From Rosellinia necatrix (taxonomy: Eukaryota > Ascomycota > Sordariomycetes > Xylariales > Xylariaceae), in contig JAGYVD010000009.1 in the NCBI GenBank assembly GCA_021209875.1, positions 868,001 to 932,000 of the forward strand: a stretch of 64,000 nt of DNA, given 5' to 3'. This document shows, one piece after another, positions 35,093 to 62,900 of the stretch. The translations under genes were made by a program, and so were the position numbers. The first letter of the stretch is position 1. The number at the start of each line of letters is the position of its first letter. The notes under the pieces were generated by a model. It made no database searches, was not told where the DNA came from, and worked only from the letters and a program-made list of their open reading frames with translations.

Positions 35093-36874
35093 TTAATCCT
35101 TCACAGAAGTGACTTTAACTCGTAAACCCTTCGTGTCTTGTTTTGGCGAAGGCACGAAAAAGTCGTGTACAATCTCGACATCAGAGATGTCGGTGTCGTA
35201 AAGCTCAAATTCAAATCGCCGAAACAGTGTAGCAAGCACTCTGTATAGCTCTACATACGCCAAACTACCACGCCGCATACGATTAGTATATAGATGACAA
35301 ACTGCCTCGATTAAACTTACTTGATGCCAATACACATCCGAGGACCTTTGCCGAAGGGGACAAAATAACGAGTGATGTGTTCTCCATCACGAGTCTTGGG
35401 GTTGTCCAGCCAGCGTTCTGGGACAAAGGCGTGCGGCTTCTGGAATATTTCATCGTCATTCAGGACATCAAGTGTTGTCATGGAGACCGGCGTTCCAGCG
35501 GGAATTACCCAGTCCTTGTACCGCATAGGCTTATCTCGAGAGACGCGTGGGAGGCGAACCGACACGCCCGTCGACATTCGAACGCCCTCTCTCACACACC
35601 CAGTAAGGTACGGAAGCCGTTCTAAATGAAGCGAATCAGGTATAACTGTGGGGTCAGGGATGGCCATTTTAAGCTCGGCTTGTAACTTCTTTAGCGTAGA
35701 AGGATTGTCAACGAGGTGGAAAACTGTAGTTGTCAGGGCCCATGCCACAGTCTCCAGCCCAGCCCCGATTAACTGCTGTGCTTCGGCACCTAGCCGACCT
35801 AGTGTCTTCTCCTGCGGTGGTAGGTTGCTCCCGAGTAGCTCGCTGAAGATGGTTGGATGATCCCCTTCGCGGTGGGCCCCATCCTTGCCGTTGACGATAT
35901 TCGTAATCTTGGACGCGAGGTCCTTCTCAATGTCAATGAATATGATCTCAGTGGTCATTGGCAAAGACTCACCTTTTGCAGCGCGAACATTTTATAAATA
36001 TTAGGCGCCACCGTTTTGATGAGCCAGGATGGGCTCAGTCCTAGCACCTTTGTCGGGTGAGAAAAAGTATCAAGACGTATATGAAGGCAGGGGTCGCTCA
36101 GGGCTTACGATGAACATTGCCGGAAATTGAAGTCCTAGATGGGCAAACTTGCGCACTGCCTCATAGGCGGGATGAAAATTATCCCTGAAATCAATAGAGT
36201 TCAATTGGTCCCAGCAAAACCCGAAGCAATATGAAGCGATGACGTCGCCGGAGAATGCATTAAAGGCGTTGTTGAGGCTTAGGGTTTTCCCGTCCTCTTC
36301 GTATGATGCTATGCGTTCACTCAAAAGCTCGACTTTCTGCTTGATGACAGGTTCAAATTTGGTGATGCTTCGTTTCGAAAACATCGGATTGAGCGGAGCC
36401 CTGCGGATTGCATGAAGATCGCTTTTGACGGTTGACGAGGTCGTTGTATTGGCACCAAATCTCCCCGACATCCACTCATATCTCTCATACTCTTTATGGC
36501 CAGTGTAAAGCTCGTCCCAATAGCTACTATCTTCCACATGCAGCTCAAAGGGGTTGATGCGGACAATTGGACCTTTTCGATGTTCAGAAACGAGAGGTGA
36601 CAGGGGATTTCATGCGTCACATACCATATTTTTTATGCATCTTTTGGATCTGGAAAGTGAATTGGCCTCTTAGAACGACGTCGTAATAAAACTCGTACCA
36701 TTTTGAGATCGCCGCAAGTTTTGGACCTGGGAATTTCGACAACGGACTCAGGTGTAAGCGATAAAACACAAGACCGACACCGTATGTGAACCATAACACG
36801 ATAAATCCCGTCAAAATAGCGACGGATGGCCGTGCAAAGGCCAATGAATAATCCATGGCTAGCAGAGACGCCAT
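35093..36874 (-). CDS. Cytochrome P450 monooxygenase 1 (trichodiene-oxygenase-like group)
   Basis: ER-bound heme monooxygenase likely to oxidise the cluster's terpene. Exons 36874-36625, 36572-36109, 36047-35973, 35925-35321 and 35264-35093 give 521 residues. N-terminal anchor helix (AILTGFIVLWFTYGVGLVFY), proline hinge SKFPGPKL, I-helix LIGAGLETVAWAL with the Glu-Thr pair, ExxR in REGVRM, PERW, and heme loop FVPFGKGPRMCIG. The start is the ATG at 36874; a TTG-initiated extension is ignored. The third intron is taken as 47 nt (GTGAGT to ATTGAG) because it restores the family's residue spacing before the KITNIVNGKD segment. It is transcribed divergently from the next P450 and shares its first intron position and phase (after KYG) with P450 3, so those two are probably paralogues. 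Confidence 0.92.
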
Positions 36875-37313
36875 GTCAAGGGCCGGAGTGAAGAACAAGC
36901 TTCTGACGAAGTAACCAGTAACTATGTCTTTAGGTGAGATGCCGGGCCTGTCAATGCTCTAAAATCGACTTGGGAGGTGGGGGGTGGTGGGTGGAGTTGA
37001 ACGTAGGAACCTCTGTGAGAGCCGATCAGTGAGCTCGGAGCTCGGATGGCGCCCTGCTCAATAAGGAAAACCCGGAGGGGGGGGTGCAATTCGATATTAC
37101 AATAGCAGGAGCCCGATACGTCGCGGAAGCGCAGGCAAATGTCGAAGAGCAATTTTTCAGGGAATCACATTTTGTGAAAGATATGCTGTAACTTGCTTCA
37201 ACTTTGATTGCCAGAGCGTCAAGAATTAGCCAGTCAGTATGATACGCCTGCCCGAATGGCCCGAGGGCGCCGTGCCTTCCGCACCCCAACTTGCTATAGG
37301 GGCAAGCTGCATC
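36875..37313. promoter_or_regulatory. Divergent promoter between P450 1 and P450 2
   Basis: The 439-base spacer drives both P450s. It contains a direct repeat of GAGCTCGG at about 37031-37046, giving two CGG half-sites eight bases apart in the same orientation, of the kind Zn2Cys6 factors can bind. G-rich runs lie near 36974-36995 and 37075-37083. Binding by the cluster's own regulator is inference. Confidence 0.5.
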
Positions 37314-38846
37314 ATGGCAAGTCTGGATACCACAAGTCCCTATGTTCGTGGATTAACGATTCATAGGCATACCTGGTGGCATCAGTTATTTACAATAGGC
37401 TCTTCCACCCCCTCCGAAAAATTCCTGGGCCGTTTTGGTGCTCGGTCTCTTGGTTTCCTTGGTACAAATACTGGTTTTCTGGTTACATGCACCGCCATGT
37501 TTTGAGACTACACGAAAACTACGGCCCAGTTGTTAGACTGGGACCTAGTGAAGTCTCCTTCATCGACAGCGCCGCCTGGAAAGATATCTACAGTCTCAAA
37601 AGATGTAGGCAAATTGAGCGGGATCCAAAATCATTCCCCGCACTCACGCCAAATGGAGCACGGTTTGATCTGTTGACGTACAGCCCGTCCGATCATGCCA
37701 AATACCGCAAAATCCTAAACCCATCGTTCTCCGAGAAGGCGACCAAAGAGTATGAGCCTACCATTCACGAAGATACCGACATATTCATCAAGAAGCTTTC
37801 AGAGAAGCTCCAGGGCCCCGGACTCAAAATCAATTTAACGCAATGGCTACAGTGGCTTACATTTGATATGGTTTCCAATGTAGTCTTTGGGGAGACGTTT
37901 GATTGCGTCACGCACGAGACTAGCCATCCCTGCTTAGCACTCTCCATGGATCTCGTTTCGTTTTCGTCGTTCATAGTGTTCGTCGCATGGTGGACCGGAC
38001 TGAAGAACTTCTTGGTCAAGCTGTCGGGCGTCGAGGGCTTGTTCGTCAATATGGTGCGGTCTAAGTGTGAGAAGAACTTGAGTTCGAAATCCCAGAAAGC
38101 CAGCGTCTTCTCAAACTTGACCAAAGCCGGCGACCCACTGAACCAAGCTGAGATAGACGGGAATCTCACTGCTCTCGTGATTGCGGGAAGCGAGACGACC
38201 GGTTTTATCTTGACTGCTACCAGTTATTATCTCGCGACGAATCCGGAATGTTTTCGAAAAGCGACCGAGGAAGTTAGGTCAGCGTTTTCTTCAGCTGAGG
38301 AAATCAATGATGATGATATTAGAAAGCTGCCGTATCTTCGAGCTACGGTGGACGAAGCTTTGAGAATGACGCCCGCAGAGCCAAACGGGTTAGCCAGAAA
38401 GGTTGTTATTGACGGAATCGATATCGCGAATCAATATATCCCAAAGGATGTAAGTCTTGCTTTAGAGATCTGTTATAGGTATATCGTTGAACTAACATAC
38501 ACAGACCGCCATTTATGTCTCCCAATTCGCTCAGAACCGGCATTCGGCCAATTTTCATCTGGCAGACGAGTATCATCCTGAGCGGTGGTTGAACGACCCT
38601 AGATTCAAAAATGATAAATTGGACGTAGTGCAGCCATTTATCATGGGCGTTAATGTTTGCATTGGAAGGGGACTAGCCTGGATGGAAATGAGAGTTATTC
38701 TAGCTAAGATGTTGTGGAACTTTGACTGGACGATAGATGCGAAGGATAGAGAGCCTTTCGAGAAAGCGAAGGCGTGGCATGTTTGGATGAAGAACCCAGT
38801 TAAGATCAACTTATTGCCTAGAGGCACGCTTAGCGCTAAATCATGA
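37314..38846 (+). CDS. Cytochrome P450 monooxygenase 2, frame break close to the N-terminus
   Basis: Heme monooxygenase of the cluster. The main exon runs from about 37367 to 38449, and the last is 38505-38846 (donor GTAAGT, acceptor ACACAG, branch CTAAC). Motifs: HPLRKIPGPFW hinge, I-helix LVIAGSETTGF, ExxR in VDEALRM, HPERW, and heme loop FIMGVNVCIG followed by RGLAWMEMR. The N-terminus should be MASLDTTSPYV at 37314 followed by the anchor AYLVASVIYNRLF, but these lie in different frames: one base is missing near 37364-37367, or a 23-base GTTCGT...TTAAC...ATAG segment (37344-37366) that looks like a shrunken intron would have to be removed, which exactly restores frame. 23 nt is shorter than known spliceosomal introns of fungi. 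About 490 residues if restored. Confidence 0.88.
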
Positions 38847-39592
38847 CGATAGCGCTTAGGTAGAGTGCGGTATAAGGGCGCCTATACAAGTCACTATTCC
38901 TGGACTAATATAGGTACTTAACCCAACATCACAATTAACCAATGCAGCCCTCTTGAAATATTAAGTCAACAAGTAAAGTTTCTATCATAATCCCATCATT
39001 GCACGTATATTGTTCGATTGATATATCAATTGTATTTGCGTAGATCGCTTGGTAATCACTCATCGCCTTGTCAAGTTTCCCGCTCAATTAAAGGCGGATT
39101 TTATCTTAAAATTCTGTGGCAGCGAGCTGCGAGAGATGCGTTTTTGAAAGTATGCCTAATCGCAGCTTCGAGATAAATAACTCGAAGCTGCTATGAATTT
39201 ATATTAAAATACCGTTGGTTTATAGCTTAATCTTACAAGATTGTGTTTTGGTCAGGAGGATAAAAAAGAAGCACCAACATTGCTCCGTCGGAGGCAATTG
39301 GTGGGTGGGCGGCAAAATGCACACCAAAAAACGGTGTGTTCTTGGTGCCGATCACAACAAGATTCTAGTCACCCATAAATAGGAGGATCACGATACTCTT
39401 TTTAATCAACTTCACGCTTCAGTTAACTATTCTTACGAAGGCCTACGAGATCATCTTAATTGTTGTGCATATTAACATGAGTAAGACGGAGCCTGCATTT
39501 TGAAGTGGCACACCATCTAAGTAGATATGTAATTGGCGATGGCTCCAAATTAGGAACCTGAAAAGCTGCGTCTTTCTTTAGGTGATCCTTGT
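38847..39592. other. Intergenic between convergent P450 2 and the NTF2-like gene
   Basis: About 750 AT-rich bases with no gene seen; shared 3' flank. Confidence 0.6.
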
Positions 39593-40199
39593 TTATTTAG
39601 CCATCCCGGGCAACTTTTGAATAAACGGCAAGAAGGGTACACGATCCTTGTAAATATACATCTTGTTAATCTTCCCAGCTTCAGGGCCCTCTGTGACAAT
39701 ATCGAAACGCCCGATCATGGGAATTGTGACCGAGGGCGAGTCAGGGAGTGCGTTGAAGATCGCTGTTGACGTTCCAGAACTGTAGATAGTGCCGTTTGTC
39801 ACGTCTTCACACGGGATTAGCTAATGCACCAGTACCAAGCAACCCATCTAGAGAATTCGACTTGCTTACCATTCTTGAATCTAGAATGCGACGTCTTCAT
39901 CGATGGCATGACTTGCATCTGTTTCTTCAGATTCTACAAACCCTGTCAGCTACATCGCCCGAACACCAGTATGCTTAGTTGGACTTACTTGAGTAAAGTT
40001 TTCAAGCCCTTCATCCCTTTGCAAGCCACCTTGGTACTCTAAGCTCGTTGCAAAAACTTCAGGGAACCGATCGAAATCATAAGAGTCCAAGATTTCAAAA
40101 ACCTATTCATATTAGCGGCGGCCCATGGGAGCGGCGATAGGGAACCGAACACACCTTGGAGAGGAATGACTCAGGGTCTTGAAGTGCAGCGACTGCCAT
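39593..40199 (-). CDS. NTF2/SnoaL-like small protein, candidate cyclase or pericyclase of the terpenoid pathway
   Basis: A 144-residue protein built from four exons (40199-40155, 40102-39989, 39933-39870, 39804-39593) with clean donors GTGTGT, GTAAGT and GTAAGC and all phases consistent. Residues 1-45 form an amphipathic helical start (FLSKVFEILDSYDFDRFPEVFA) and then comes a beta-rich half with SRFKNDVTNGTIYSSGTSTAIF and PMIGRFDIVTEGPEAGKINKMYIYKDR, the typical cone-shaped alpha+beta layout of NTF2-like/SnoaL proteins. No signal peptide, no cofactor motif. In fungal and bacterial biosynthesis this fold often serves as a cofactor-free cyclase, isomerase or dehydratase. It shares a promoter with P450 3, pointing to coordinated expression. 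Assignment to the fold is by pattern, not by search; the reaction is unknown. Confidence 0.82.
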
Positions 40200-40629
40200 G
40201 ATGAATCAAACTGATCGGATGTTACCTTAAGAAATTGCGTCTTTCCGCTGAAATTTTAGTTTCAATCAATCTATAGGTCACAGTTATTCGTGATATAAGT
40301 AGAGCCACCCAAATGAAGTTCATGGTTATGATAACAAGATTCGGGACTGCCTAATAGGGAGGTCTAGGGGACCTTTCCAGCGCTGTGTCAGAAGATTTAC
40401 AGAGGTTCGGACCTGCCTAAGTAAGCCCCGCTAGGACATTGAAGGACCGCTAGAAGCTGATGTCTTGCACTATCTACATACTTAGATAGAGTGTGAACCT
40501 CGTTCCATAAAGATACATGAGATATATGAGTCGTTTGTTACCAGTTTCCTCTGGATGCACAATTACTTACATACTCGACTGAGGCTGCTACTATAGTACG
40601 CACTGTGGTTAACGAATACGTCAGCCGCC
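40200..40629. promoter_or_regulatory. Divergent promoter between NTF2-like gene and P450 3 with duplicated TTCGGNNCTGCCTAA motif
   Basis: The 430-base spacer carries TTCGGGACTGCCTAA at 40340-40354 and TTCGGACCTGCCTAA at 40406-40420, same strand, 66 bases apart, 13 of 15 positions identical. A direct repeat this long in a divergent promoter is a good candidate binding site for a Zn2Cys6 factor (CGG core). I did not find a clear further copy in the other cluster promoters by eye. Confidence 0.55.
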
Positions 40630-42781
40630 ATGGGTGCATTACAAGACGGGCTTGAGGCCTTAGACCCCGCCTACCGCAAAGCCAACCGTTGGGAACTCCT
40701 AGGGGCCGCAGCTATTATTCTGGTGATCTACAATACTGCCTTAGTTATTTACCGTCTCTATTTTCATCCCCTCGCTATGTTCCCAGGTCCCAAGCTGGTA
40801 GCGGCGTCAACATGGTATGAAACGTATGTGGACCTCTTCCGCCATGATTTTCCGGAGCGGTTGGCGAAGATGCACGAAAAATATGGTAAGAGCTCTGGAA
40901 CAAGGCACATAGCTGGGCTGCAAATCCTAATATTCTCATAGGCCCTATTGTACGGGTTTCTCCTAGGGAAATTCACATCAGCGATGCCAACTTTGTTACG
41001 ACTGTCTTTGCTACTGCGGCGAAGCACCGGACAGACATTATCCCTCCTCGGGGCTTGGGGATGGATGGTAAGTGGACATCCTCGACCCATGATATATATC
41101 GGTATGAATTAATTCAATGGAAATGTGCAGACTCTATCGGATCTACGCCTGGCCATGACATTCATGCCGTGAGAAGAAAGCCACTGGACAAGTACCTCTC
41201 ACGCCAGAATGTTGTACGGCTTCAATCTATCATTCATGATGAAATTAGGAGTCTAGAACAGATAATGCTAGAGGTAAAAGACACAGGACTGCCGGTCAGA
41301 TTGGATTGTGCTTTCACGGCCTTCACAGGTGACATCGTGGGACATATTGCTTGCGGCGAAAGCCCGCAGCTTTTAGAAGGCAAGGACTTTACGCCCGAAT
41401 GGTATAATTCAGCTCGTCTTTTCTGATATGGACGAACGGATAGCTAACGGCTTATGCAGGTACACAATGATCCGAGGTGCAGCGAAAATCATTCCTCTGC
41501 TACGGCACTTCCCACAAATTGGACTGTAAGCAGAATGTATCCAATTACGTAGAAAGGCGACTAATGGAAACGTAAAGTATAACGCAATATGTACCAGCAC
41601 AGATAGTGCAAGCATTAATCCCGAACACTACAGGCTTCAGGATCTTGCAACTAGTAGGCACACACCTAGCTCTGGAAACATCTCTTTGGGTGGTTTTACT
41701 AATCGTATCAGCTTGGTGAGCAACGAGTCAACCGGATAAGAAAAGAGATCGAGAAAGAGAAGAAAGGCCAGGCGGAATCTGAGGAGAACGGCTCCATGTT
41801 CCACCACCTCCTCCGCAGCGACATTCCAGAGTCTGAGAAAAACCCTGCCCGCCTGGCCGCTGAGGCGGTGTCCTTCCTTGGTGCTGGGACCTATCCTACT
41901 GCCGCTACTCTCATCTTAACTGCGTACTACATTCTTGCGAAACCAGAGATTGAGGAGCGGCTTCGCAAGGAACTGAAAACCGTCATGGCCAACTTTGACG
42001 ACGAGGTGCGTTCATTTCCCCACCCATACTCGTGAGGGTTATGGAATCTTCACCTGCACTGCGACTAAGAAAACACCATGTTTTAAAATACTGATATGAG
42101 ACGTACAGGTGCCCAACTGGGTTGAGGTTGAGCAAGTCGAGTATTTGGGTGCATGCATAAAAGAAGGGCTTCGGTGAGCATTCAAACATGGAATCATGAT
42201 AGACACAGCAAGATTGACTTTATGGCCACTACAGAATCCTACGCCTATTTCGCCGGAAGGGTCGTATTTCCATTGATAAAGACCTTCAGTACAAGGAATG
42301 GACAATTCCGAAGAATGTAGGTGAACCCCATCCACCCTTCCATGCCTATATCACATGCTAATACGTGTAATCTACAGACGCCGGTCAGCATGTCGCCTTT
42401 CTCGATGCACGTAGATCCAGAAGTGTTCCCCGATCCTTTCAGGTTCAACCCGGATAGATGGCTGGGCAAAAACTATGATTCTCGCATGGACCGCAACTTG
42501 AACCCATTCCTTCAGGGTTCGCGCATTTGCATTGGCATGCAGTAAGAACCAACGTCCCTCTGCCCTGCTCGCTAAACAGTAAGACTAATGAGTGCAAACT
42601 TCGCAGCGTGGCTTGGGCTCAGATGTACCTCATTCTGGCTACACTGTTCCGGCCAAACAAGAAATATCGTCTGCGCCTGGGTGCTTGTGACGAGTCGGAC
42701 GTCTTCCCAGTGATCGACAACGAGTTTGGAGTTGCCAAATACGATTCTAGAGGGCTTGTTGGAATGGTGGTCGCTGCATAG
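40630..42781 (+). CDS. Cytochrome P450 monooxygenase 3
   Basis: Heme monooxygenase of the trichodiene-oxygenase-like group. Ten exons: 40630-40885, 40942-41067, 41131-41401, 41460-41525, 41607-41653, 41728-42005, 42109-42173, 42235-42316, 42378-42541, 42607-42781, giving 509 residues. Anchor helix AAAIILVIYNTALVIY, hinge AMFPGPKL, KYG-PIVRVSPREI across the first intron, ExxR in KEGLRI, FNPDRW, and heme loop FLQGSRICIGMHVAWA. The I-helix reads FLGAGTYPTAATL: Tyr-Pro stands where most P450s have Asp/Glu-Thr, so proton delivery may differ. The short fifth exon and the acceptor of the intron following it (ACGAG at 41727) are the least certain joints; they were chosen because only they keep frame. 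Divergent from the NTF2-like gene. Confidence 0.88.
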
Positions 42782-43211
42782 GCCTCTCTAACTCCCGGCG
42801 CGGGTGGCCAAGATACATTCGTAGCGCTTTGGTCACAGGAGCAAGTTCGTGCTATATGTACACAGCCGTGGGAAGAGCTCTTCGGTACAAATGGTGCCTT
42901 AGTAGGAGAAATTAATGCATATAAGAAGAATGAAGTAAAAATAAACGATAATAACAGACATCTTTTGGCTAGTTATTAGTTCTGCAGCTGTAGAATCCGA
43001 ATAGGTAGACAAACAAATTTAGTGAGATGCTGCGACGTAGTGCCGGTCGCTATGCCACTGTATCAATCCTGTGGGTACCTCTATACGGTAGCGAATTTAG
43101 CAATATGTCCTAGCCCTTACCCGCCTATAACTAATTCTGAAGCGATAATACACTCTCAACTTAGAATGTAGTTACCTGTTCATAAATACCTAATGATGTG
43201 CAATAGGCATT
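42782..43211. other. Intergenic between convergent P450 3 and glycosyltransferase
   Basis: About 430 bases of shared 3' flank; nothing seen. Confidence 0.6.
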
Positions 43212-44875
43212 TTAATATATCTTTTTCGAGGGCTCCTTGCCCTCGAAACAGAGATTGGAGATAATTCTAGCAGCCTCAATTCTACCACCACTCTTCCGGC
43301 ACACCTCGCCCAGATTTGCTGCCCGTGTCTTCATGGCGCTAGCTTTTTGGTCAACTTTTCCACGCCCAACAACTTTCAAAAGCGCATCGCCGAACTCCTT
43401 CCCATCGACCATAAGTGGTGCTTGATAGTTTTCCTTGTCGACTTTGCAATTCCGGCTTGCAGCGCGATTTCCGTACACACCTACGCCGAGATACTCGATA
43501 CGTGTGGCGTAATCAAATGTGTCATACCACATGGCAAGGATCACATGTGGAATACCGGCCCTTGATGAAGTTAGCTCTATATCCAACGGGATTTCTTTTC
43601 AAAGGGAGCAAGACATACCAGGTTGCTTCAAAATATGAATTTGCTCCGCCGTGGTGCACAGCACACACGATATGCCCACTCCTCAGAATCGCCACTGGGT
43701 CCGGCTTCAACCAGCTCTCAATCCTAACCCTTCCGCTCTCTATCTCCTTTCCCAGTATCGCTCTCAACGAATCCTTTCCATCTCCTTCGGATGCCGCTTC
43801 CGTTTTCAATTTCCATAATACTTGGATATCAGGTCGCGCATCAAGAAGAACGCGCAAGCCGACTGCCTGCTCTCTTACTGTTGCTGCGTACGCTTCAAAA
43901 TGGGTCCCGAGAGCCATAAGGACCGTTGGTCTCTTCTCAAGCCAGGCAAGAAGCTCCGGATCGCTCTCTACGATAGGGGGTGAAGGAAGCATGATCGGCC
44001 CGCAGTTATATACATTTGACGGGAAGCTTAGGGGAAGATCAATTTCGGGGAGTGAAGGGCAAATATGTGGGATATCCTTGACCCATAGGGTGAAGCTTCC
44101 CAGGGGCTCATGAAGACCTTGGGCGCTCCTTGCTTGGTTGACAACTTTAACCTGCGGATCATTGGCGGCATCTTCTATGGTCCGTTTGCAGTAGTAATTC
44201 TCTATTAGATTACTCCATGGTAAGGGATATGGAAACCCAGTCGAGAATCTGTGAAGCTTGTCGTCAGCATCAAAGGGCCGCGGCGCTAAAGGTAGGAGGG
44301 GAGGCATACGCAGGGAACTTCCAGTACGCAGCAAGCCACGGCTGTTCTGATATTAAACCCTCAGCCATAGTGCAAGGACTCAAAACAGCGTATTTCCTCT
44401 TCAAACTCCGAGCCATATCATGTACGGGGACAAGATGGGGATCTACCACAACAAGTGCGGGATCTAGCTGTTTCGCCAAGTCTGCAGCCCATCCAAGCAA
44501 CGCCAGATGTGCGTCCGGTCCCCAGGCAGAGAGAAACCTCACAGCTAATAGGGCAATCCTCTCTGCCCCTAGGCGGCCGGGCGGGTGAGGTACATCGGCT
44601 TTTCTTCTACTCGCATTCTTCTTTGCGAACTCTGGAAAGCCGGGGAATGACGCGAGGTCATGAAAAGCGATCGGGGCTATCAGCTCCGCCGGGTTGTCAT
44701 CCTGAGCTTTCTTAGAGAGACTTTCTAATCGTGGCTTCAAGGGTGCCCATGACGCGACGTGAATGTCGAGCCTGTTCTGGCGGAGAAGCTCGTAGATTGT
44801 TGATAAGACGACATTGGCCTGGCCGAAGTCGCTGTTGGTGAAAAACAAAATTGTCCTCCGTTGCGCCATGACCAT
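43212..44875 (-). CDS. GT1-family UDP-sugar-type glycosyltransferase
   Basis: Inverting GT-B glycosyltransferase that would attach a sugar to the oxidised terpenoid. Exons 44875-44310, 44248-43619 and 43560-43212 give 514 residues; donors GTATGC and GTATGT. The N-terminal domain starts ILFFTNSDFGQANVVLS, the acceptor-site side. The C-terminal donor domain has PTVLMALGTHFEAYA, VLWKLKTEA, and the signature VHHGGANSYFEATWAGIPHV with AMWYDTFDYATRIEYLGVG; the HHGGANS core contacts the nucleotide-sugar phosphates. A second in-frame Met lies at 44869. No membrane anchor is seen, so it is probably cytosolic. Which sugar is used cannot be told; no nucleotide-sugar biosynthesis gene is found in this window. 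It is divergent from the FkbM methyltransferase across about 1 kb. Confidence 0.93.
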
Positions 44876-45910
44876 TCATGTGTCGAAGCGTCTGGTATCT
44901 ACTTCGTAGAGCTAGTCCCAAGTTCGCAGCAAGGTCCGGCACAGTCAAGATATGCTGCGCTTTTCATCCAACAACTTCGATAAAATACTGTAACTAATAC
45001 TTACACCCGTCTCCTAGTAGATCTCTCTATTGAAGGTTTCGGCGCTGATCCTACTCAGATTAGTATACCCGCCCTAACGGGGACTGTATGTACATCGCTA
45101 CATGACACTGTGAATGCGTTACTTAAAATTGCACCTGCTGCGCCTAGCAACTCATGTCTATCTGGTCTAATCCTCCACAACGACTACTTGCTTGGCAAAG
45201 CCCACATCCCGTTTCGCGATTGCCTTATTCAGAAGTATCCGGGTATCTGACTCGCGGAGCAGTTTGGACCCTTAACCTTGGCATTCGTTCGCTTAATTCA
45301 GAGAGAGTCTGCATATTATCAAGTATGTAATAGCTGTTTCAACGACGCCTCACCAATGCCAAGGCTTTTCTTATAATACGGAAGAGTAGCATTGAGTGCT
45401 ACTGTCAATAGTATTCGTAAACAATCAAAGGGAGTGTGTTAGTGATTGCCATGGAGCACTTGATAACATAGAGAAGACCCTCAAAGTTACACATGTACAG
45501 ACTCCAGAAGCACAAAGAGGGCTTGTGTTGGGCCCGTACTCTTATTATACTGGCTAAATTATAGATATCTGGATCAACAAACAGATTAATGTAAGCACCC
45601 AGTTGGCACACGCCTGAGAAGCAATGCACAGGCCGTTTTTATTTGTATAATGTTTGGTTTCCCGCCAAGCATCCAACAGGTTCAGCCGGTACAGCCCAAT
45701 CAGGCACGGCCGGGCATTACCACGAGCACAACGATAGTCAGTAGATAGCTCATTATTTATCATTGTCTGACACTGCGGACTCGTAAATTCAATGATTTCT
45801 AAGTGGCACCCTTGGTCGGATTACTATCTCATTCTCCATCATAGTTTTATCCAGAGCAACACAGCCACGGGCGAACACTCCAACTCCACGTTTTTACACC
45901 CTAATCGAAG
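44876..45910. promoter_or_regulatory. Divergent intergenic region between glycosyltransferase and FkbM methyltransferase
   Basis: One kilobase with promoters at both ends. Scattered CCGG-containing sites (GTCCGGCAC near 44934, AGCCGGTAC near 45683, CACGGCCGGGC near 45704) are present, but no clear long repeat. No gene. Confidence 0.45.
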
Positions 45911-46648
45911 ATGGCTGAACTCATAGAATTTGAAAAGACCTCATGCTATTCCATGAGCAAAGATGAGGCAAAGTTTATTTACAAAGAGATCTTTGAAGAT
46001 GGGTGTTACGATGTGTCGAATCTCCCCGACGCACCCTTCGTCATCGATGCCGGAGCCAACATTGGAATGTTCTCTCTATACATGAAGCAAAAGTTTCCCT
46101 CATCCAAAATCCTCGCCTTCGAGCCAGCTCCGGAAACTTACGGCCTTCTACGCCGCAATCTTGAGTTACACAACGTCACGGACGTGGAAGCCATCCCCTT
46201 CGGCTTAGCCTCAAAGGCCAGCACCGAGAAGCTTACGTATTTCCCAAACATCCCCGGCAACTCAACTTTAAAACCGGAAGAAAAGAAGAAATTGTGCGAG
46301 ATGGCTTTTGAAATGAGCGGCCGAGAAGACGCCAAGGAACGGTTCGGCGGCGCTCAGGAAGTTGATGTTAAACTAGAACGGCTTTCAAACATCCTAAACG
46401 ACCACCCTGATTTCACGCAGATTGATTTTCTCAAGGTGGATGTTGAAGGTGCTGAGCTCGAAGTGTTGCGCGGCCTAGACGACGCCCATTGGGGAATGGT
46501 GCGTAACGTTGTGCTGGAGACATGGGACGCTTCCGGGGTTCGGGCCGAAATAGAGACCCTGTTGAAGTCGAAAGGCTTCGCTATCAAACTTGAGGAAGCT
46601 CCCTGGGCAAAAGGATTTTACATGATTAGCGGTTCGCGTGAGGACTAG
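45911..46648 (+). CDS. FkbM-family SAM-dependent methyltransferase
   Basis: Class I methyltransferase, single exon, 245 residues. Motif I is VIDAGANIGMFSLYM (residues about 44-58), followed by the acidic strand-2 end ILAFEPAPETYGLL that binds the SAM ribose, an IPFGLASK segment, and the FkbM hallmark DFLKVDVEGAELEVLRG near residue 177. FkbM is an O-methyltransferase family named from FK506 biosynthesis, and members methylate sugar or polyketide hydroxyls. In this cluster, beside a glycosyltransferase, O-methylation of the sugar or of the terpenoid is a reasonable guess. The ATG at 45911 follows a purine-rich AACGAAG-like context. A short hydrophilic N-terminal helix precedes the fold, and there is no signal peptide. 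Confidence 0.92.
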   Translation: MAELIEFEKTSCYSMSKDEAKFIYKEIFEDGCYDVSNLPDAPFVIDAGANIGMFSLYMKQKFPSSKILAFEPAPETYGLLRRNLELHNVTDVEAIPFGLASKASTEKLTYFPNIPGNSTLKPEEKKKLCEMAFEMSGREDAKERFGGAQEVDVKLERLSNILNDHPDFTQIDFLKVDVEGAELEVLRGLDDAHWGMVRNVVLETWDASGVRAEIETLLKSKGFAIKLEEAPWAKGFYMISGSRED

Positions 46649-47867
46649 TTAAGTGGACGGTCGACAAGCAATCAATCCAATATCTTTATAGATTCAATCT
46701 AGATGAGGTGGGAAATGTTATCATAACTATGTCGCGAACCCAATTACAGGTACGGGTGTACCAGGGAAAATATATTCATCAGTTATATGTCGCCCGGATA
46801 GTTTCACAAGGAATTTCGTATTCGGCATGAATAAATCACCTCTGCAGTGATCTCATTACCTCAAATAGACATCAATTACAACGATTTTCATACCTTTACA
46901 ACGGGATAGCCTGCGTGTTGATCCGCATACCATGGTCGGAGAGCTGGCGGCATTTCATTCCGAATCTCAGAACAACTCGGGCCAACCCCGCTGGCGGGTC
47001 CTGCGATTCTCCATCGGTAATTGTTCCGAAACCCAAGCTACCGGATCTCTAGTATGTCACCGAACCCATTGAATGGGTTTATGCTTCTCCAGCCGTTGGA
47101 GCTTCGGTAGATGCACGAATTGATTTTGAGGAAAGAGCCCAACACACATCATTGCAGGAAATTTTATAGAACCCAGTATAATGGGCGCAAATGAGGCACA
47201 AAAATATAATACGGCGGTAGTATTAAGTCGCCGTCGCATAATGGGGTGGTAAACAATGGCTACCGACGGCAAATTCCGATAGGGGTACTTATTCTTTGCC
47301 TAGCGCATATTTCTTTAGCCCTCATCTACGAGTTCACTCCTCCTATCCAATCCCATTTCCCCAGTATCTAGAAATTTCTCCTGAAAAATTTACATGATGA
47401 CTATCATCTCTCGCTCGCCATCCTGTCAAGTCAAATAATAATGGACCGAGTTCGCTGAGAATGGATTACGCTTCAAGAATTATCTTGGCGGCGGGGCAAC
47501 GGAAAACAATCTCAGCTTCATCTAGCAATGGTAGAGATTTTATTCTCAAACAGCGGATTTCGCAATTATATCCCAGTTCACGAAGCAACTCATGTGAAGT
47601 TCATTTTGTTCATCATGGAGATTGGTGAAATCGACGCTCTGTCGCATGCGGTTGCTGCTTCTTTTTCCAGGATTTTACCGGCACTTCTGGAATAGGCAAT
47701 TTCCGGTACTTATCTTGATAGCCAGACCCAAGCAATGAATGGACTAACTAGAAGATCATCCGATGTGATTCATCGTTGAAATAGAGAAAACACCGTCCGA
47801 ATTCATGAGTTAGGCGCTCACTCTGCAATTCTTCTCCTTCGTTCCTGTGCGAATTCGCATAGCAGAG
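46649..47867. other. Intergenic, 1.2 kb, upstream of P450 4
   Basis: No gene seen. The last 300 bases should contain the P450 4 promoter. Confidence 0.6.
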
Positions 47868-49789
47868 ATGGAGGCTCATAATGTGTCGTTGTTTCAGCCC
47901 AATGCTGCCTACGACAAGCTCAATACCATCCTCGGCACTGATGTGTCCACATTCTTAACTACTTTCGGCGCCTGGCAGGGGGTAATTCTGCTCCTGTGTC
48001 TTTCTTGGGGAGCATCGTCACTCTCTACCAGCCGGAGAATCCGGGTTGCCGGTGCACCTGTCCATGGCTACATGTCATGGCTTGAGCCGACATGGTTCTT
48101 CAAATTGAGATATGCGAAAGACGCCCACAAGACAATTGTGAGCGGCTACCACAAGGTGCGTTCTAATTACAGCCGATACGAATGGCAACAATGCAGAGTC
48201 GGCAGGATTTATATAATTAACAGGCTATATAGTTCAAAGAGTCACCGTTCGTTCTTCGTCGCCTAGACCATGACATCACAATTCTTCCCACTAAGTACAT
48301 AAACGAGCTTCGGTCGATCCCTACCGCGAAGCTGAGTCGAGGAAGAGCCAACTTTTTAGTTAGTTTATCCCATGGTTTGTTATTTCTATCCTCATCCCTG
48401 ACATGTTTCTGTAGGAATGGGGAGACCAGTGGGCGATGCACACTCTGTGGAGCCATTCAGAATGGTCAATCAGAGCCATATCCGAAAACCGTAATGGTCA
48501 AATGGGAAAATATCTTGAGGCCATTAGAAAGGAGCTTGATTACGCTTACAAAGCTGAGATGCCCCAAGTTGACGGTAAGCTGAACGAATACCCTTCTTTT
48601 CCCCTCCTGATTGATCCCCTTTTATGATCCAATGTCGCGGATTTAATATGTCTCATATTGTCAATGAGCATGTGCTGAATAGTTACAGATTGGACTAAAG
48701 TAGATATCCAACATATCATTGGCAAAATATTGGTGCGCATCATCGGTAAGATGATAGTTGGCAATCCTGCCTGCCGCAGTGATGAATGGTTGAACCTAGG
48801 CTTCACTGAGGATTTCGTGTCTGCCTCCATTCTCATGCGGCTTCTCCCAACTTGGACGCATCCTATAATCACAAATATTCTTCCCCAGAGATGGAAGATG
48901 AGAAGAGGCGTGAAAACCGTCAGTAAGATCATCGAACCAGCCATCGCTCGACATAGGGATGCAAACCAGAAAAGATCACAAGGATTGGATGTCAACGAGG
49001 AAGACTCCATGTTAAACTGGGTGCTTGACAACGCAGATAGCGATGATGTTCTGGAGAATTTGCCTAAGATTGTGTTGGTCATGTTTGTTCCCGCAGCTCA
49101 TACTACTTCTATGGCTATCTCCAACGTCCTGTTTGACCTATGCGCCCATCCGGAATGGGATGCAAAGCTTCACTCTGAGGTTACTGACCTCATAAAAGAG
49201 GTTGGCCCCGTAGGCGAGAAATTACCAGTCAAGGATTGGACGGCAAGATTAGAATTCCTCGACAGCTTCTTCAACGAAAGCCAGCGTCTGAGTCAACCCA
49301 TATCTAGTAAGCTCCCCTTCTTGGATATGTACTTATAATCAAACGCGATATATACTTACTGTTGCAGTCACACCAAATCGATATGCATATGAAAACGTCA
49401 CCTTCAAGGATGGGCTTACCATCCCCAAGGGCGCGTTAGTCGGGTTCGTTGCTATCCACAACCAGATTGACCCAGAGATCGCGCCCAACCCGGAGAAGTT
49501 CGATCCAACGAGGAGCTTCGTTAGACGACACTCATCGCCTGAGGAGAAGGATAAGCATCTTGCCGGACAACCGAGCAAAGAAAACTTTGCTTTTGGATAC
49601 GGAAGTCAAGCTTGCCCGGGACGCAACTATGCAGTGGCCGTCCTCAAGATGGTTCTTTCACGGATACTGGTAGACTACGAGTTCAAATTCGTCGCGGGCC
49701 ACACAAAGCCAACCAAATATCACTTGATGGAGTTCATTATCCCCGACCCAACTGCGAAGCTAATGATGAGGAAGCGAAAAACGGCCTGA
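47868..49789 (+). CDS. Cytochrome P450 monooxygenase 4 (ent-kaurene-oxidase-like group)
   Basis: Heme monooxygenase in the group that includes fungal gibberellin P450s, many acting on di- and sesquiterpenoids. Exons 47868-48155, 48233-48358, 48415-48574, 48689-49306 and 49368-49789 give 537 residues. N-terminal anchor near residues 30-50 (FGAWQGVILLLCLSW), I-helix VMFVPAAHTTSMAIS with the His-Thr-Thr typical of this group, ExxR in FNESQRL, a VTPNRYAY substrate strand, FDPTR, and heme loop FAFGYGSQACPGRNYAV. The ATG at 47868 is preceded in frame by a GTG-led stretch that is not needed. The second intron has the less usual donor GTTAGT. Co-directional with the terpene cyclase further on. Confidence 0.93.
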
Positions 49790-50578
49790 TTAGCACCCTA
49801 GCCTATATAGCGGGAAAAACACAATAGTATCTAAACCACAAGATTACTAATGCAAATAATAACATTTACGTTTTACACATAATATGAACGAGCCAATAAT
49901 ACTTAGTAGCTCAGGTAATCTTAGTAGACAGCCAAGCGGTAATGGTTACACAGTGGAACAATAACGTATAATATCCAATAAAGGCTTGCGGTAATTAGAT
50001 ACTGGGGCTTCTCCCTAAGGCATCATGCTATGTAAATTTTCGATTTCAGAGATAGCTTGTTATATAAGCACTGCCATCCCATTGAATGCTTCTTACAGCG
50101 CTTTATGTTATCTCATACATAAAATGCGTTTCGCGAACAACGCGGATATATCTTACGTGACGACCGCTAACGCCTGTAATCAGTGTGTAGAGACAAAGAT
50201 TCCGGCTGTTACATTTTATCCATACATACTGTATATAGAAATTCCGAATCGCATTCCGTGTGTATAAAACGACGCGGTATCCATATAATTCGCAATATGA
50301 TCAACATTAGTACCGGACCTTTCCTCTTCTGGCCAATAGCATCGCTAGATTTCGAGAACCCAACGCTAGATCTCATGGTCACCAAACGGGAAGTTGCCGA
50401 ATCCACCCCGTGCATGAATCAGTACCTTAGTGTTCACGTCATAGTACCGAGGTGCTGTTGATAGTTATTTATGACATTCTGTTCCAACTGCACATTCAAA
50501 TTAAATCCTGAATGGTATTTATCGTTCGTCTCGTTAATACCATTCTCTACAGTTCCAGCAAACATCAAGCCATCCAAG
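49790..50578. other. Intergenic, terpene cyclase upstream region
   Basis: About 790 AT-rich bases. No gene. An in-frame ATG at 50471 could extend the cyclase by 36 residues, but that stretch (Cys/Phe-rich) looks like leader rather than protein. Confidence 0.6.
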
Positions 50579-52322
50579 ATGCCAGCGGTCAACGAAGCCT
50601 ATGAGACCAACGGGTACAGCGTTCCCAATGGGGGCGATGTGACCAGCAGCATCGATGGAACTAGCGATGTTCATAAAACAAATGGCATTAATGGAACTAA
50701 TGGAATCAAGGAGACGAACGGCATCAAAAAAGTCAACGGCATCAAGGAAGTGAACGGAACCAAGGAAAAGAACGGTGTCAAAGAAACCAAACCTAGGACT
50801 CTTCATATCCCGGACCTCTTCGGAGGCATTCTATCAGGTGATCCCGTCGAGAATCCTTTGGAGCCCACGATTGGGCCGCTATCCGAAGAATGGACTAAAG
50901 CGTATGTTAAACTTACTGGTGGTGAAGTAGACACAACTAACTTCGAGACAGACTCACAAAAATGGACCCCAAGACGGCCAAGATATTAACAAAGGCAAAT
51001 TTCGCCTACTTGATCAGCTTAGCTGCTCCTCAAGCGGACGCGGCAGCATTTCGCATGGCAGTTGATTGGTGTATCTGGGTAAGTCGAAAACTGCTAAGAT
51101 CAAAGTTGGGCATTACTAAACATTAACAATAGGCCTTCGTGTTTGACGATCGTGAGTACCACTCCTGTGAAAAATGGAAGGAAATTTGGTTAATGTGACT
51201 AGAGTACGATGAGGGCTTGATGAGGGACAAGACTATCGAGTCTGCTCATGAGATGATATGGACATTGTCACTGATGGACGACTCATATCCTCCTGTCGAC
51301 CCTAAGAAGCACCCACTACGATATATGTTTCAGACAACTTGGCAACGGTTTCAACTCGTACGTAACGACTCGGATCCGCAAGCTTTCGCATTTCAAGCTA
51401 ATTCATAGATTATAGAGAAACCCAGCTCCAGGTATTTCAACTCTGGTCTTTGGACACCACCCTAATCTACTCATTGCTAACTCGCACTCTGGAAAGACCT
51501 TCAGCAACGATGGAAGGAATCTCATCGGAGGTGTCTGTTTGCTATACTGCAGCAAGTTTGGCTAGCACAGTCAAAAACCGGCCTCGACGTTTCCATCCCT
51601 GACTATATGGACACTCGGCGGCAGTCGATTGGTTCATATTGTTTATTTGTGGTAGTTGAGTGCGTCTTCCATACAGAAGCAATCGTCGACCAACGTTCTT
51701 TTGCGAAGCTAACGCGAATTCAGATGGGCGCATGGCATAAAGCTGACACAGGATATATTTGATCATCCCTCTATGTCCACTTGTGAGCGCGTCGCAGCCG
51801 ATCTCACTTGGTTGTAAGTTGGGGTGCACTCTGCCTTTCGGCGCCGATTAGCGAGAGTATATCTAACTTGATAATTCAGAGTAAACGACGTGTTGTCATA
51901 CAAGAAAGACGTGGTAAGCCATTTCTCCAGACATGCAAGACGCCTCGATCTGTCAGCTAATATTAACGAATCAGGCCTTTGGCGTAGAGCACAATTTGGT
52001 CTGCTTGTTAATGCGGCAAGGTTGCACTGAGCAAGAAGCAATGGACAAGATCGGTGAGATTATAGATCAATGCCATAAAGAATGGGATGACGCAGTAGCA
52101 AATCTGCCCTCATGGGGTGAAGAGACAGATAAGGAAGTGCAAAGATATCTCGGTGCGTGTCGGGACGTTGCGAGAGCCAACCTTTGGTGGAGGTACGTAA
52201 ACCGTTTAGTAATACCTACTTTGATACCGACTAATCATCTTCATAGTTTCAAGAGTGGTCGCTACTTGAACGCGGAGGAGGCAGGCCAGGCGCGTGTTAA
52301 TAAAATTTTGACTTTAGGTTGA
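50579..52322 (+). CDS. Class I terpene cyclase, core enzyme of the cluster
   Basis: Ionises a linear prenyl diphosphate (farnesyl or geranylgeranyl, not decidable) and cyclises it. Ten exons (50579-50901, 50952-51078, 51133-51151, 51203-51357, 51416-51431, 51497-51659, 51724-51813, 51880-51913, 51975-52192, 52247-52322) join in frame to 406 residues. Residues 1-70 carry an Asn-Gly-rich tandem repeat (TNGIKEVNG-like units). The aspartate-rich motif is FVFDDQYDE (D155, D156, D159), the pyrophosphate-sensing Arg is in DTRRQSIGSY, the NSE triad is VNDVLSYKKD (N300, S304, D308, with Asp for the usual Glu), and the C-terminal RY pair is in WSFKSGRY (387-388). There is no fused prenyltransferase domain. 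Two exons are micro-exons of 19 and 16 nt, and the first encodes the aspartate-rich motif. It ends 106 bases from the convergent regulator gene. Confidence 0.94.
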
Positions 52323-52428
52323 GGGTTTTGTACAATACAGCAAGTATCGGAGCGCTGAATGGGTCACTGTTTTCAAAGGCGAAATAGGCTAAGAATTGAT
52401 GTTATTACTCTGTCATGATTTGTTATGT

Positions 52429-53959
52429 CTATAAATCTACTGTAAAACCAACGCCCTCCCGCTCTGACCCTATACTAGCTATCCTGTCCGTGATTGACTG
52501 CCTCAAAGCCTGGATAACCCACTCGTAGCCAGGATGGTGAGCCTTCACGGACCTTTCAAGAAGGCTAATCAGACTCCCAAGCCTCGTGATGCGGATACCA
52601 ATGAGAGATTTTATAACTTGAATCTCATCTTCGTCGTCGAGACGCCACCCGCCGGCTTTGAGCCCTCTTTTTCGTCCACCGTCTGACTCAGAGCGTGATC
52701 TTTTCGAGCTCCCATGCTGGGATCCGGGCAGGAGCGTCGCACTCAAGTCCCCAATGCCATTCATCATCTCATGACACATAGAGACAATCAGCATCACATA
52801 ATCTGACCGCAAACTGCATCGTAGACATTCGAGCAGCGTCTCACAACTGACCAATATGTCCTTCTGGCATTGGAGCATATCATCAACGCTGACCGATACC
52901 CCATTGAGTGGATAAGCCCCCCCAGACTAATTTTACTTGCATGTCCTCATTAGCTCCCATGAGCTTCTCTAGGCAATGGCACGTCGCGGCTGGAGGCTGT
53001 GGGGATACTGCCCCCTGAAGCCCCATTCCAGGGAGCGCCGAATAGGCCATCCCATCTGGCGTTGTGATCTTCGAGGATTCTCCCAAACAAGGTGTTTGAA
53101 TATCTTGAATGATGCTGGTGTCCCAACCGAGTGGTTCTGTTATGGGGGTCGACGTGGTTTGTGGTGTGGCTTGTGACGACCCCCCCGCTGTCGCTGGTCC
53201 CCCATCTTCGGGACCGTTATCCCCCCCACGGGAATAACCTAAGAGGAAATCGTGATTGGACTTTGACGGATCTATCCGCGGAAATGGCGTAGCATCACCA
53301 TCATTCTCCCCTCCACTGCTTCCCGCAAGGTAAAGAGGTGTATCAATATCCACTTAGAAACAAATTAACATAGGCCCCGTGCATGTTGAAATCTGCACTT
53401 TGGGGATAACTTACTACCGCCATCGTTGGGTAATGACCAAAAATCAAAAGATATTTCACTTTCAAGTAAATCTGCAAATGAAAAGCCTTCTGGCATCGTA
53501 GGGTCACCAGGAGCCGAGATGGGTGTTGCACTGTTTGGGGGGGGGAAGCCGCCCTATCTCGAACTGCGATAGAGAGGTCGTTGTCTGGTAACGGTTTGGG
53601 TGCTGCAACTTGTTTCCCCTTCGATGGTCCGCTTGAGCTTCCCGATTTTGAAGCTGCCTTGGAAGATTTGGAAGCCAAGGTCGTATCCGATTTGGTGGTA
53701 GTCCGGTATGAGCACTCCAAACCCTGTTTGAGGCACTTCACGCAGCTATTCCCTTCAGCGACACATTTTAACTAGAGTTTCGTCAGCATAATACCACGAC
53801 ATATATCTGATACTGTAGTCTGACCTTTTTTAGCTTGCAAAGAGTGCAAGCCCGTTGTTTCTTGCCTTTATTCTTCTCAAACGGCATACCAGCAGACTGC
53901 ACAACATAGGCAGACTCGCCCGTTGTCGTGCTGCGTCGAGCTTTCAGCGTTTGAAACAT
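52429..53959 (-). CDS. Zn2Cys6 transcription factor with AflR-like C-terminal region; frame break in a G9 run
   Basis: Likely pathway-specific activator, nuclear. Exons 53959-53825, 53771-53418, 53352-52941 and 52888-52429. The binuclear zinc cluster spans the first splice joint: CTLCKLKK-LKCVAEGNSCVKCLKQGLEC, spacing C-x2-C-x6-C-x6-C-x2-C-x6-C, followed by a Lys/Ser-rich linker. The C-terminal half has CHCLEKLMGANED, LLECLRC and VMLIVSMCHEMM, resembling the AflR regulatory domain of aflatoxin-type regulators. Exon 2 changes frame at the G9 run (53537-53545): upstream SIAVRDRAA and downstream PISAPGDPTMPEGF are only joined if one base is added (or two removed). The intron 52940-52889 has a GC donor (GCAAGT), which fits the GC-AG class and keeps frame. 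Corrected length is about 453 residues. Confidence 0.88.
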
Positions 53960-59900: not shown

Positions 59901-62900
59901 TTAGACATAGGTCGGACGGCTTGGCAGGGCTTGTGCTATATTACACAGAACCCCATGAACCGCGAACGGCTGGGTAGCTAGCTACCTTGTAATGCATACT
60001 TCGCATCCTCCCAAATCCATAAAGTTCGAGAAGCAAAAGAGCAACCAGTGTATGTAGGCCAAGATATTTAATATGTCTTTGTTCATTACATGTGTATGTA
60101 ATCGATCTCACATTACGGCATCAGGGAGCACTCCAGGGACAGGGCATAGAGTGACCCCTGCGTAGTCTCATAGACAAGCTTATTCCGAAACTACTGTATA
60201 CCAAGCCAAAGCTAGCAAGCTCACAATGCAACTTGGCGATCCTCCCGTTAATATGAATGCGAGCGTGGCGGCAACGTATGTAGGTACATACCAGTCGACC
60301 GAAGGCGCTTTTACCACGTGTCAACGGTCGGCAAAGCCGAAGCGAACAAGAGAAAACTACAATACACTATGTACCTAGATTATACTATCATGCAGTAATG
60401 TAGTAGTCCACATAGTATGCTCACCAACCCCGCTAAACTAGTAACGGTATGATCTATGTATACTAACATGCCATTTATGCAGATATCTTGACCACCAAAC
60501 CTCCACAACGTCTTCCCCAGGAGTCGGAAATACCGCTCTGCCTTGTCACCGGGGGTGAAAGTACGACGCTAGTATAATCCACTACTATTTGGCCGGCAAT
60601 GAACATGTAGGCGAGTGACCGCCCTTCCATAATAGCTAGAGTGGAATGAGAGCGACGTGGAGTTGGCTAAGTTTGTCTATCGAACTATTCCCAGCATCGA
60701 CGAGACAATAACATATTAACCTTCTTCAGGACTGAAGTACCTAACACCACTCTCCCCATTAGGTCGCCAACCAAAATGCCCCTCCAAGTGGTGCCCCGGT
60801 TTTGAAGTGTACCCATGTAAGGTGCGTACAGGCCAGCGGCCGATTGCCTCCACGATTCCCTGAATCATTATAGAATCCCAGCATGCAGGGACCAGGTATG
60901 ACTGACAAATTCAATGTCTTTTATTTTGTACACAGTCTTAGCTTGACGAATAGACTCCTCCCAGCGCGTTCGATAGAAATTACCGTAAGCAGAAATTAAC
61001 ACTAGTTATAGGCTGACGGGCGGTTTGGCCTACTCGGCGTGCGTCACTGATGACTGCCGAGCCTCTCCTCTGCGATTCATAAGGCTGTGAAATAGTAGCA
61101 CCGATCTCGCCTCTGTATATAGACAGGCAGCATGAGAAGAGCTCCCGGCGACGCCTAGATAGTGTACCAGCCGTGTATATACCTGGGTATGCAAATGCAC
61201 GGCTTCCAATTGGGAAAGAAGGAGCTGCTTAAATACGACTAACAGGTCATATGCAGTTTTTCAGATAGGAAACAGTCGCATAAGTTCATTACGCATCTAT
61301 TATTATAACGGCCAAGGTTTCTAAATACGACCTCGACACCTGAATCAGCTAGCTACCCGGGAAAGCTTCCTCAGAGGGGCACACTCCGGTCGATAGAATA
61401 CACTGCTCACTAGCCTAATATAACGGGGCGTCTTGTGTTATAGCCATCTGTCTGGTATTAAGCTGATATGTGCATGGGTATCCGATCCGACCGAGGGGTG
61501 ACTGGGTTTGCTAGGTGCATGTAAGGTCGGTTAAACTTACCCGAATCAAATAATCTGCAGTAGTATTGAGGAATGGGTATATGCAAGATTTCCCGCAAGG
61601 TAGAGCCATAGACCAAACAACCTACTACACGAAATGCACGCGTGAAGATCTGCGTAAGCGCTGAAACTCGGATCCGTGACTGAGAGAGTCGCCAACCATC
61701 AATAAATATATATCAGCACAGACCAATAAGTCGAATACCCGTGGGAGCGTTCAGGCTCTAGGCTGCGTTGTCGAACGATTATTTTATCAGGGTAGTAATA
61801 GAACCAGCATCGTGCATACCCATTAATCGCAATGTTCAGGTAGCACTGTGCTGTTTCTGGAACTGAGTTGCATGCCGGATTCATGGTGGCTCATACTACC
61901 CCGCGTGAGTATGTCGAACATCAGGCATGACAACATTTCCCCGGTTAGGACGGAATATATATGGCCGTGTTGAACCCCGCAAATGTAAGGATATTCACTC
62001 GCTGGGTGTTGCTTGGCACATTGATCATTCAGTGGGCAGGGATGCGCATGAAGGCCATGCTACAATCATCAACACATATTTTAGCAGAACTTATGTATTT
62101 GAACAAGAGTACTTTTATGAAGATCACACGAAATTTTAATATTTTCTAATGTAAAAATAAATAAAGTAGGAAAGTTGAAATTTTATCAGAATGGGGGTAT
62201 CAGTGGATTGAGCGGACTGAACGATAGCTAATCTCAACCTAGATTGGTGCATTTTGATAGTGATACCAACATAGAGACACATCAAGAGAATGTTTTAGAT
62301 TACGTTAATCCTAGTAATATTTACCATTTCTCTAATCGGTATACTATTACCCAATGATTGTCGATATAGTCAGGCAGCAACGGACCTTTAGACTGACTGA
62401 GTGGTTAGCTCAAACTTTTTCTTATGTGATAAAGCCCGTCGTCTCAAAAGGCTCACGCTTCTGCGCACGATATAACAGGAACTCATGACTCTAGAGACGA
62501 TGGGCTATCTTAGCAAAAGAGGGGATATTGCGGAGATTTTAATAAGAGGGCAAAAGTCGACCCTTCGCAATGTAACAACCCTTGGTGTAGTCAAACAATC
62601 AGATCTAAAAGATATATCTATAATTTATTCATTTTCATTTAGCTTTTCGTTTTGTATAATAAAGATAAGGCTCTAGTAGTCGTATCTTTCCATAATATAG
62701 AACTGGATTTTGTACATTGTTGACCAACTGTTTAATTCAATGAGCATCTAGATAGATGTATTGTCGTTAGTCTAGTGTATAATAATGCCATTTCCACAGG
62801 AATTGCTTTTATACTTATACTACTTATGTATATTTTACTTCATTGACAAACACTTGCGATCCAAGCAAAGCATGGATATGAAATAAGTAGTGAAAATTAG

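Follow-up and report, generated by a model that had tools for sequence, protein, structure and literature searches.

Sordarins selectively inhibit elongation factor 2 of fungi, and most reports of them come from the Xylariales, as far as the available extracts of the literature go. The long sdn gene cluster, as described by Sun et al. 2022 (PMC9095873), comprises twenty genes, including those for a geranylgeranyl diphosphate (GGPP) synthase (GGPPS) and a flavin-containing monooxygenase (FMO). With SdnA as the query, the same authors found that Rosellinia necatrix and Xylaria hypoxylon share a conserved compact cluster. Its eight genes encode SdnA, the cytochromes P450 SdnB, SdnE, SdnF and SdnH, the Diels-Alderase SdnG, the glycosyltransferase SdnJ and the methyltransferase SdnD, and its predicted product is sordarin B, with rhamnose attached by SdnJ and methylation by SdnD (PMC9095873). 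SdnG forms the norbornene, a class of Diels-Alderase that Sun et al. termed undescribed, and their BLAST searches found no homologs of it outside sdn-like clusters (PMC9095873). Here we consider a 64,000-nt stretch of the R. necatrix genome (49.1 Mb in 12 contigs), henceforth the window, which spans positions 868001-932000 of its contig. Between 35.1 and 54.0 kb it carries what is, with high confidence, a compact sordarin-type diterpenoid cluster of Rosellinia, which would yield a sordarin B-like antifungal. Cluster genes, lettered A to I, are given in window coordinates; C2, C3, C5, C8 and C9 denote contigs of the same genome.

The eight enzyme genes lie within 35.1-52.3 kb, and their spliced models have GT-AG introns and no internal stops; a ninth gene, encoding a Zn2Cys6 protein, follows at 52.4-54.0 kb. 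An earlier note on this DNA had listed a class I cyclase, four P450s, an NTF2-like protein, a glycosyltransferase, an FkbM methyltransferase and a Zn2Cys6 regulator within ~19 kb, and all nine were located as it claimed. Its proposal that they form a sordarin-type cluster for a glycosylated and methylated terpenoid is supported by the gene set together with four orthologies. Protein comparisons show the orthology of the products of genes C, H, A and E to SdnG, SdnA, SdnE and SdnJ, respectively, and all the gene classes occur in readable frames.

Gene C (39593..40199, minus strand; 4 exons, 144 amino acids [aa]) encodes the NTF2-like protein. It matches the SdnG entries in the PDB (8yhg, 8yhm, 8yi8, 8yj4, 8yia and 7xsi) with 134 bits (E 2.3e-38), and 69/134 residues (51%) are identical to those of the crystallised enzyme. 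No Pfam family matched it in a scan that covered seven of the eight enzymes, P450 D being left out. Judged by its match to the solved structures, gene C is an SdnG ortholog, predicted to act as a cofactor-free norbornene-forming Diels-Alderase. Gene H (50579..52322, plus strand; 10 exons, 406 aa; Terpene_syn_C_2, 150 bits) is the class I diterpene cyclase. Direct reading of its translation finds the motifs DDQYDEG and NDVLSYKKD, and the haem motif FxxGxxxCxG was likewise read in all four P450s. A search of 4043 candidates gives 23 relatives of the cyclase at E <= 0.001; 21 of them score 363-761 bits, after which there is a sharp fall to 201. The Naviculisporaceae sp. PSN 640 protein named "Cycloaraneosene synthase sdnA" (P0014) is 66% identical to the cyclase, X. 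hypoxylon E0Z10_g3263 (P0010) 67% and a protein of X. palmicola 82%. In a tree of these 23 relatives and the query, gene H groups with 11 Xylaria and Nemania rows (support 100/99), within a group of 22 rows, the named sdnA among them, that is set apart from two outgroup rows at 100/100 under a midpoint root. By these phylogenetic relationships gene H is an SdnA ortholog, with predicted cycloaraneosene synthase activity. The 5' part of its coding region contains an 18-bp minisatellite (50717-50775) that encodes NGIK/NGTK-like repeats, and the X. hypoxylon ortholog has a shorter NG-rich stretch.

The P450 encoded by gene A (35093..36874, minus strand; 5 exons, 520 aa; Pfam p450, 191.6 bits) is 98.4% identical over 514 aa to a P450 of R. 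necatrix (P0024), the best among the matches listed, and 69% identical to the SdnE protein of Sordaria araneosa (SDNE_SORAA, P0039). Its start codon is uncertain, the R. necatrix homolog beginning 6 codons later. The best 120 of 2319 matches were listed, and the tree, which used 26 of those 120, places gene A together with three named SdnE proteins, that of S. araneosa included, in a clade of 14 rows (support 100/97). Names in the source records are unreliable guides by themselves: a row named sdnE (P0085, 45%) falls outside this clade, and one named sdnH (P0127) has 36% identity in the gene A search. From its place in the clade, gene A is an SdnE ortholog; SdnE of S. araneosa is the C-18 hydroxylase of the sordaricin core (PMC9095873). 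Gene E (43212..44875, minus strand; 3 exons, 514 aa) encodes a GT1 glycosyltransferase whose best Pfam score, EryCIII-like_C at 30.7 bits, is slightly below the cut-off of 31.7. Its 20 relatives at E <= 1e-20, from 7995 candidates, include two proteins named sdnJ, with 62-63% identity, and a Xylaria protein with up to 85%, and on these similarities it is an SdnJ ortholog. The tree of the 20 relatives, in which the named sdnJ proteins fall into a group sister to that of the query, is without a sound outgroup and adds little to this assignment.

The remaining enzymes are three P450s and the methyltransferase. Gene B (37256..38846, plus strand; 497 aa; Pfam p450, 209 bits) has an uncertain N-terminal exon, and gene G (47868..49789, plus strand; 5 exons, 532 aa) matches Pfam p450 with 130 bits. 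The exon borders of gene D (40630..42781, plus strand; 10 exons, 524 aa) were set against seven homologs. A frameshift considered for this gene was excluded, as introns at 41068-41130 and 41526-41577, with borders taken from the homologs, give an open frame over all 524 aa. The best match of gene D among the compared P450s, 43%, was computed with an earlier, partly wrong model. A search with a mixed alignment for P450s B, D and G returned only the 20 glycosyltransferase relatives described above. The expectation that the cyclase, the NTF2-like protein and the P450s would fall on the sdn side held for the first two and for one P450, the other three P450s not being individually placed. Gene F (45911..46648, plus strand; single exon, 245 aa) encodes a methyltransferase of the FkbM family (PF05050, Methyltransf_21, 66 bits).

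The pathway can be modeled on the reconstituted enzymes of S. araneosa (PMC9095873), and it is by analogy with these that we infer the roles of genes B, D, F and G, all the reactions, the sugar and the product. From GGPP, supplied by synthases elsewhere in the genome, the SdnA ortholog would form cycloaraneosene, which an SdnB equivalent would convert to a diol. An SdnH equivalent would then desaturate the ring to a cyclopentadiene, the SdnB equivalent would cleave the diol at C8-C9, and an SdnF equivalent would oxidise one of the aldehydes to a carboxylate. This would set the stage for the SdnG ortholog to accelerate the intramolecular Diels-Alder reaction that gives the norbornene core, with C-18 hydroxylation by the SdnE ortholog completing sordaricin. 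Sordaricin would next receive a 6-deoxyhexose from the SdnJ ortholog, rhamnose being the likeliest, and O-methylation of this sugar by the FkbM enzyme would give a sordarin B-like antifungal. Two GGPPS-like genes lie outside the cluster on other contigs (C3:2403343 and C9:1441322). The latter, at C9:1441322-1444409, is ~1.4 kb from P450 matches and may belong to another diterpenoid cluster. At C5:2802912-2806709, a divergent polyprenyl synthase whose exons are split has a P450 match ~2 kb away, a possible further terpenoid cluster.

Several points weigh against the identification as a sordarin-type cluster. Genes B, D and G are equated with SdnB, SdnF and SdnH by exclusion, with no one-to-one assignment. 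Gene F is likely SdnD, a sugar O-methyltransferase, by analogy, its match being to the FkbM family only. The trees are midpoint-rooted and contain few named proteins, and there are no R. necatrix proteins among the 23 cyclase and 20 glycosyltransferase matches. None of SdnC, sdnI, a transporter and a resistance gene was seen among the cluster genes. Finally, the regulator, gene I (52429..53959, minus strand), has a genuine Zn2Cys6 domain (Zn_clus, 28.6 bits against a cut-off of 21), but its long frame changes in or next to nine consecutive G on the plus strand (53537-53545; C on the coding strand), for which an assembly length error and a real change are equally possible.

A first alternative accepts the sordaricin core and differs in the sugar: the product might carry another glycoside, such as the 6-deoxyaltroside of sordarin or a plain hexoside, instead of a methyl-rhamnoside. 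The title of Kudo et al. 2016, as it appears in citing work, speaks of a GDP-6-deoxyaltrose transferase, a table in the available text of PMC12006653 lists "GDP-6-deoxy-D-altrose" for sdnJ, and the donor preference of the glycosyltransferase is not readable from the sequence here. Against this, a whole-genome search for GDP-mannose 4,6-dehydratase (TIGR01472) gave a single match of 61 bits, far below the cut-off of 415, and none that passed; this search scores exon by exon, so that the cut-off is hard on split genes. The same single candidate place (C2:4993458) holds a relative of dTDP-glucose 4,6-dehydratase (best 160 bits). A second gene, at C5:2516959, matches the 3,5-epimerase/4-reductase 4qqr with 155 bits and the UDP-L-rhamnose synthase 7jid with 75 bits. 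An RmlD-family match at C8:1338241, which we read as MAT2B-like, was set aside. According to the available part of PMC5698552, fungi convert UDP-glucose to UDP-4-keto-6-deoxyglucose and, via an epimerase/reductase, to UDP-rhamnose. The presence elsewhere in the genome of a dehydratase and an epimerase/reductase fit for this known fungal route makes UDP-L-rhamnose the likely donor, with no cluster gene needed for its supply. Compact clusters, moreover, are predicted to yield sordarin B with rhamnose (PMC9095873). PMC8000789 gives m/z 493.2786 for sordarin B and 493.2787 for the preceding entry, read here as sordarin, where 493.280 is expected for [M+H]+ (C27H41O8), so mass would not tell the two sugars apart. 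We regard a different glycoside as rather unlikely. The earlier note had raised the missing GDP-sugar genes as a doubt; genes fit for UDP-L-rhamnose and the two GGPPS-like genes, all elsewhere in the genome, largely answer it.

As a second alternative, the cluster may be silent or in partial decay despite its intact sequence, the regulator or P450 B being non-functional, so that it would give shunt products or nothing. The shifted frame of the regulator, in or beside a nine-base run, and the uncertain N-terminus of P450 B would fit such a state. All eight enzyme frames are nonetheless without internal stops, the regulator is outside the eight conserved genes (PMC9095873), and its shift could equally be a homopolymer length error; on balance we consider decay or silence improbable. 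The last alternative, an unrelated glycosylated sesqui- or diterpenoid cluster that resembles sdn in gene classes only, could appeal to the generic nature of Pfam classes taken alone and to the automatic name presilphiperfolan-8-beta-ol synthase on one Apiospora cyclase ortholog of the 21, but it is rejected as scarcely credible on the SdnA, SdnE and SdnJ orthologies and on the match to SdnG, whose homologs, in the searches of Sun et al., were confined to sdn-like clusters (PMC9095873).

The flanks of the sordarin-type cluster agree with the description in the earlier note. Other genes lie to the left, and the DNA to the right is gene-poor. In the left flank, seven of the eight frames scanned have a family, one of them below the cut-off; these include a tyrosinase, a GT20 enzyme of the trehalose-phosphate synthase type, an acyl-CoA dehydrogenase and a short-chain dehydrogenase/reductase, and no sdn genes were recognised in the scanned frames. 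The right flank (54-64 kb) takes up the final 10 kb of the window, where a single stop-to-stop frame reaches at least 140 aa. In the next 18.9 kb past the window no sdn-like frame of at least 130 aa was found by eye, no family search having been made there. In a repeat check, the segment at 57.5-63.9 kb had no match elsewhere in the genome; an Rfam search gave no matches over the gathering score, and a separate tRNA search gave none. The gene-poor positions 62001-64000 have a GC fraction of 0.386, compared with 0.42-0.60 in the other 2-kb windows.

The target of the sordarins offers a further lead. An EFG_IV family search finds two genes in the genome, one for eEF2 and one that we read as a mitochondrial-type EF-G. 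The eEF2 gene lies at C5:3018500-3022500, and a search with the eEF2 protein gives this one full match and weaker ones at three other places, taken as Snu114, Ria1 and mitochondrial EF-G. In an ungapped alignment to yeast eEF2 (1n0u) over 250 columns from residue 487, the protein has, in yeast numbering, Ser521, Thr522, Asn523 and Asp524, where yeast has Y, M, S and E. The nearest solved relative, 7old (Chaetomium thermophilum), keeps Y521, S523 and E524. Over the 442 columns at which 7old and yeast have the same residue, this eEF2 differs in 22 (I556F, S569G and V774I among them), and three of the 22 changes fall in the six such columns of residues 517-524 (Fisher one-sided p 0.0020), a stretch chosen from the literature. 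In Saccharomyces cerevisiae, eEF2 Y521S is sordarin-resistant, and the tyrosine of the specificity region goes with sensitivity, Schizosaccharomyces pombe being largely resistant and different there, according to the available text of PMC5668335. The eEF2 of this fungus is thus probably insensitive to sordarin. Self-protection of the producer through a changed drug target, in place of a cluster-borne resistance gene, is a tentative proposal that we hold possible but somewhat doubtful, and that the change arose as an adaptation to the cluster is put forward as a hypothesis.

Several observations tell against such adaptation. Sliding-window tests find no significant clustering of the eEF2 changes (p 0.15 with 5 columns, 0.62 with 8). 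Within 517-524 the two reference eEF2s each show one unique change of 4 columns; since these proteins also change there, the stretch is a generally variable one. To our knowledge, neither S. pombe nor Candida parapsilosis is known as a sordarin producer. Both are resistant and without the tyrosine, as given in the available text of PMC5668335. The comparison itself comprises yeast and 7old; a search for comparators in viral contigs returned none, and in the open-licence PMC literature we found no description of eEF2 from a sordarin producer. Should the hypothesis hold, the eEF2 sequence could mark sordarin producers in genomes, and the residue makes the survival of a producer in the presence of its own compound directly testable. 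The locus likewise yields a specific prediction on sugar supply, namely UDP-L-rhamnose from genes outside the cluster, and it provides enzymology with further SdnG, SdnA and SdnJ sequences, 51-66% identical to characterised or named forms. What is of interest here, in a cluster of a known kind, is the eEF2 lead together with the prediction on sugar supply.

Set beside the described systems, the locus departs from the long clusters and agrees with the compact one. The sdn cluster of S. araneosa for hypoxysordarin and sordarin (LC079035) shares its core, with 51% identity between the SdnG proteins and 69% between the SdnE proteins, and the SdnA and SdnJ orthologs here are 62-66% identical to named relatives. 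As described in the available sources, that cluster also has GGPPS, GDP-sugar genes, a polyketide synthase (PKS) and an FMO, which were not seen at the present locus: no GGPPS or FMO was recognised by eye in the frames of 35-54 kb, and no SdnC, PKS or GDP-mannose 4,6-dehydratase in the cluster frames, which is not the make-up of a long cluster. The tdn cluster of Talaromyces adpressus, according to the available text of PMC12006653, has core enzymes in common with the locus and keeps a long set with tdnC, tdnI, a PKS and others, which were not seen here. Its cyclase, GGPPS and four P450s gave cycloaraneosene and hydroxylated derivatives in Aspergillus oryzae, as the same text reports. With the compact cluster of R. 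necatrix and X. hypoxylon, in contrast, the locus has the same eight gene classes, and both are without SdnC and FMO; the Zn2Cys6 regulator, which adjoins the cluster here, lies outside the eight genes of Sun et al. A comparison of gene classes, extended to the protein of gene A, found no difference between the two. As its gene set is that of the compact cluster of Sun et al., which comes from R. necatrix and X. hypoxylon, we file the locus as already known, a cluster previously reported from this group.

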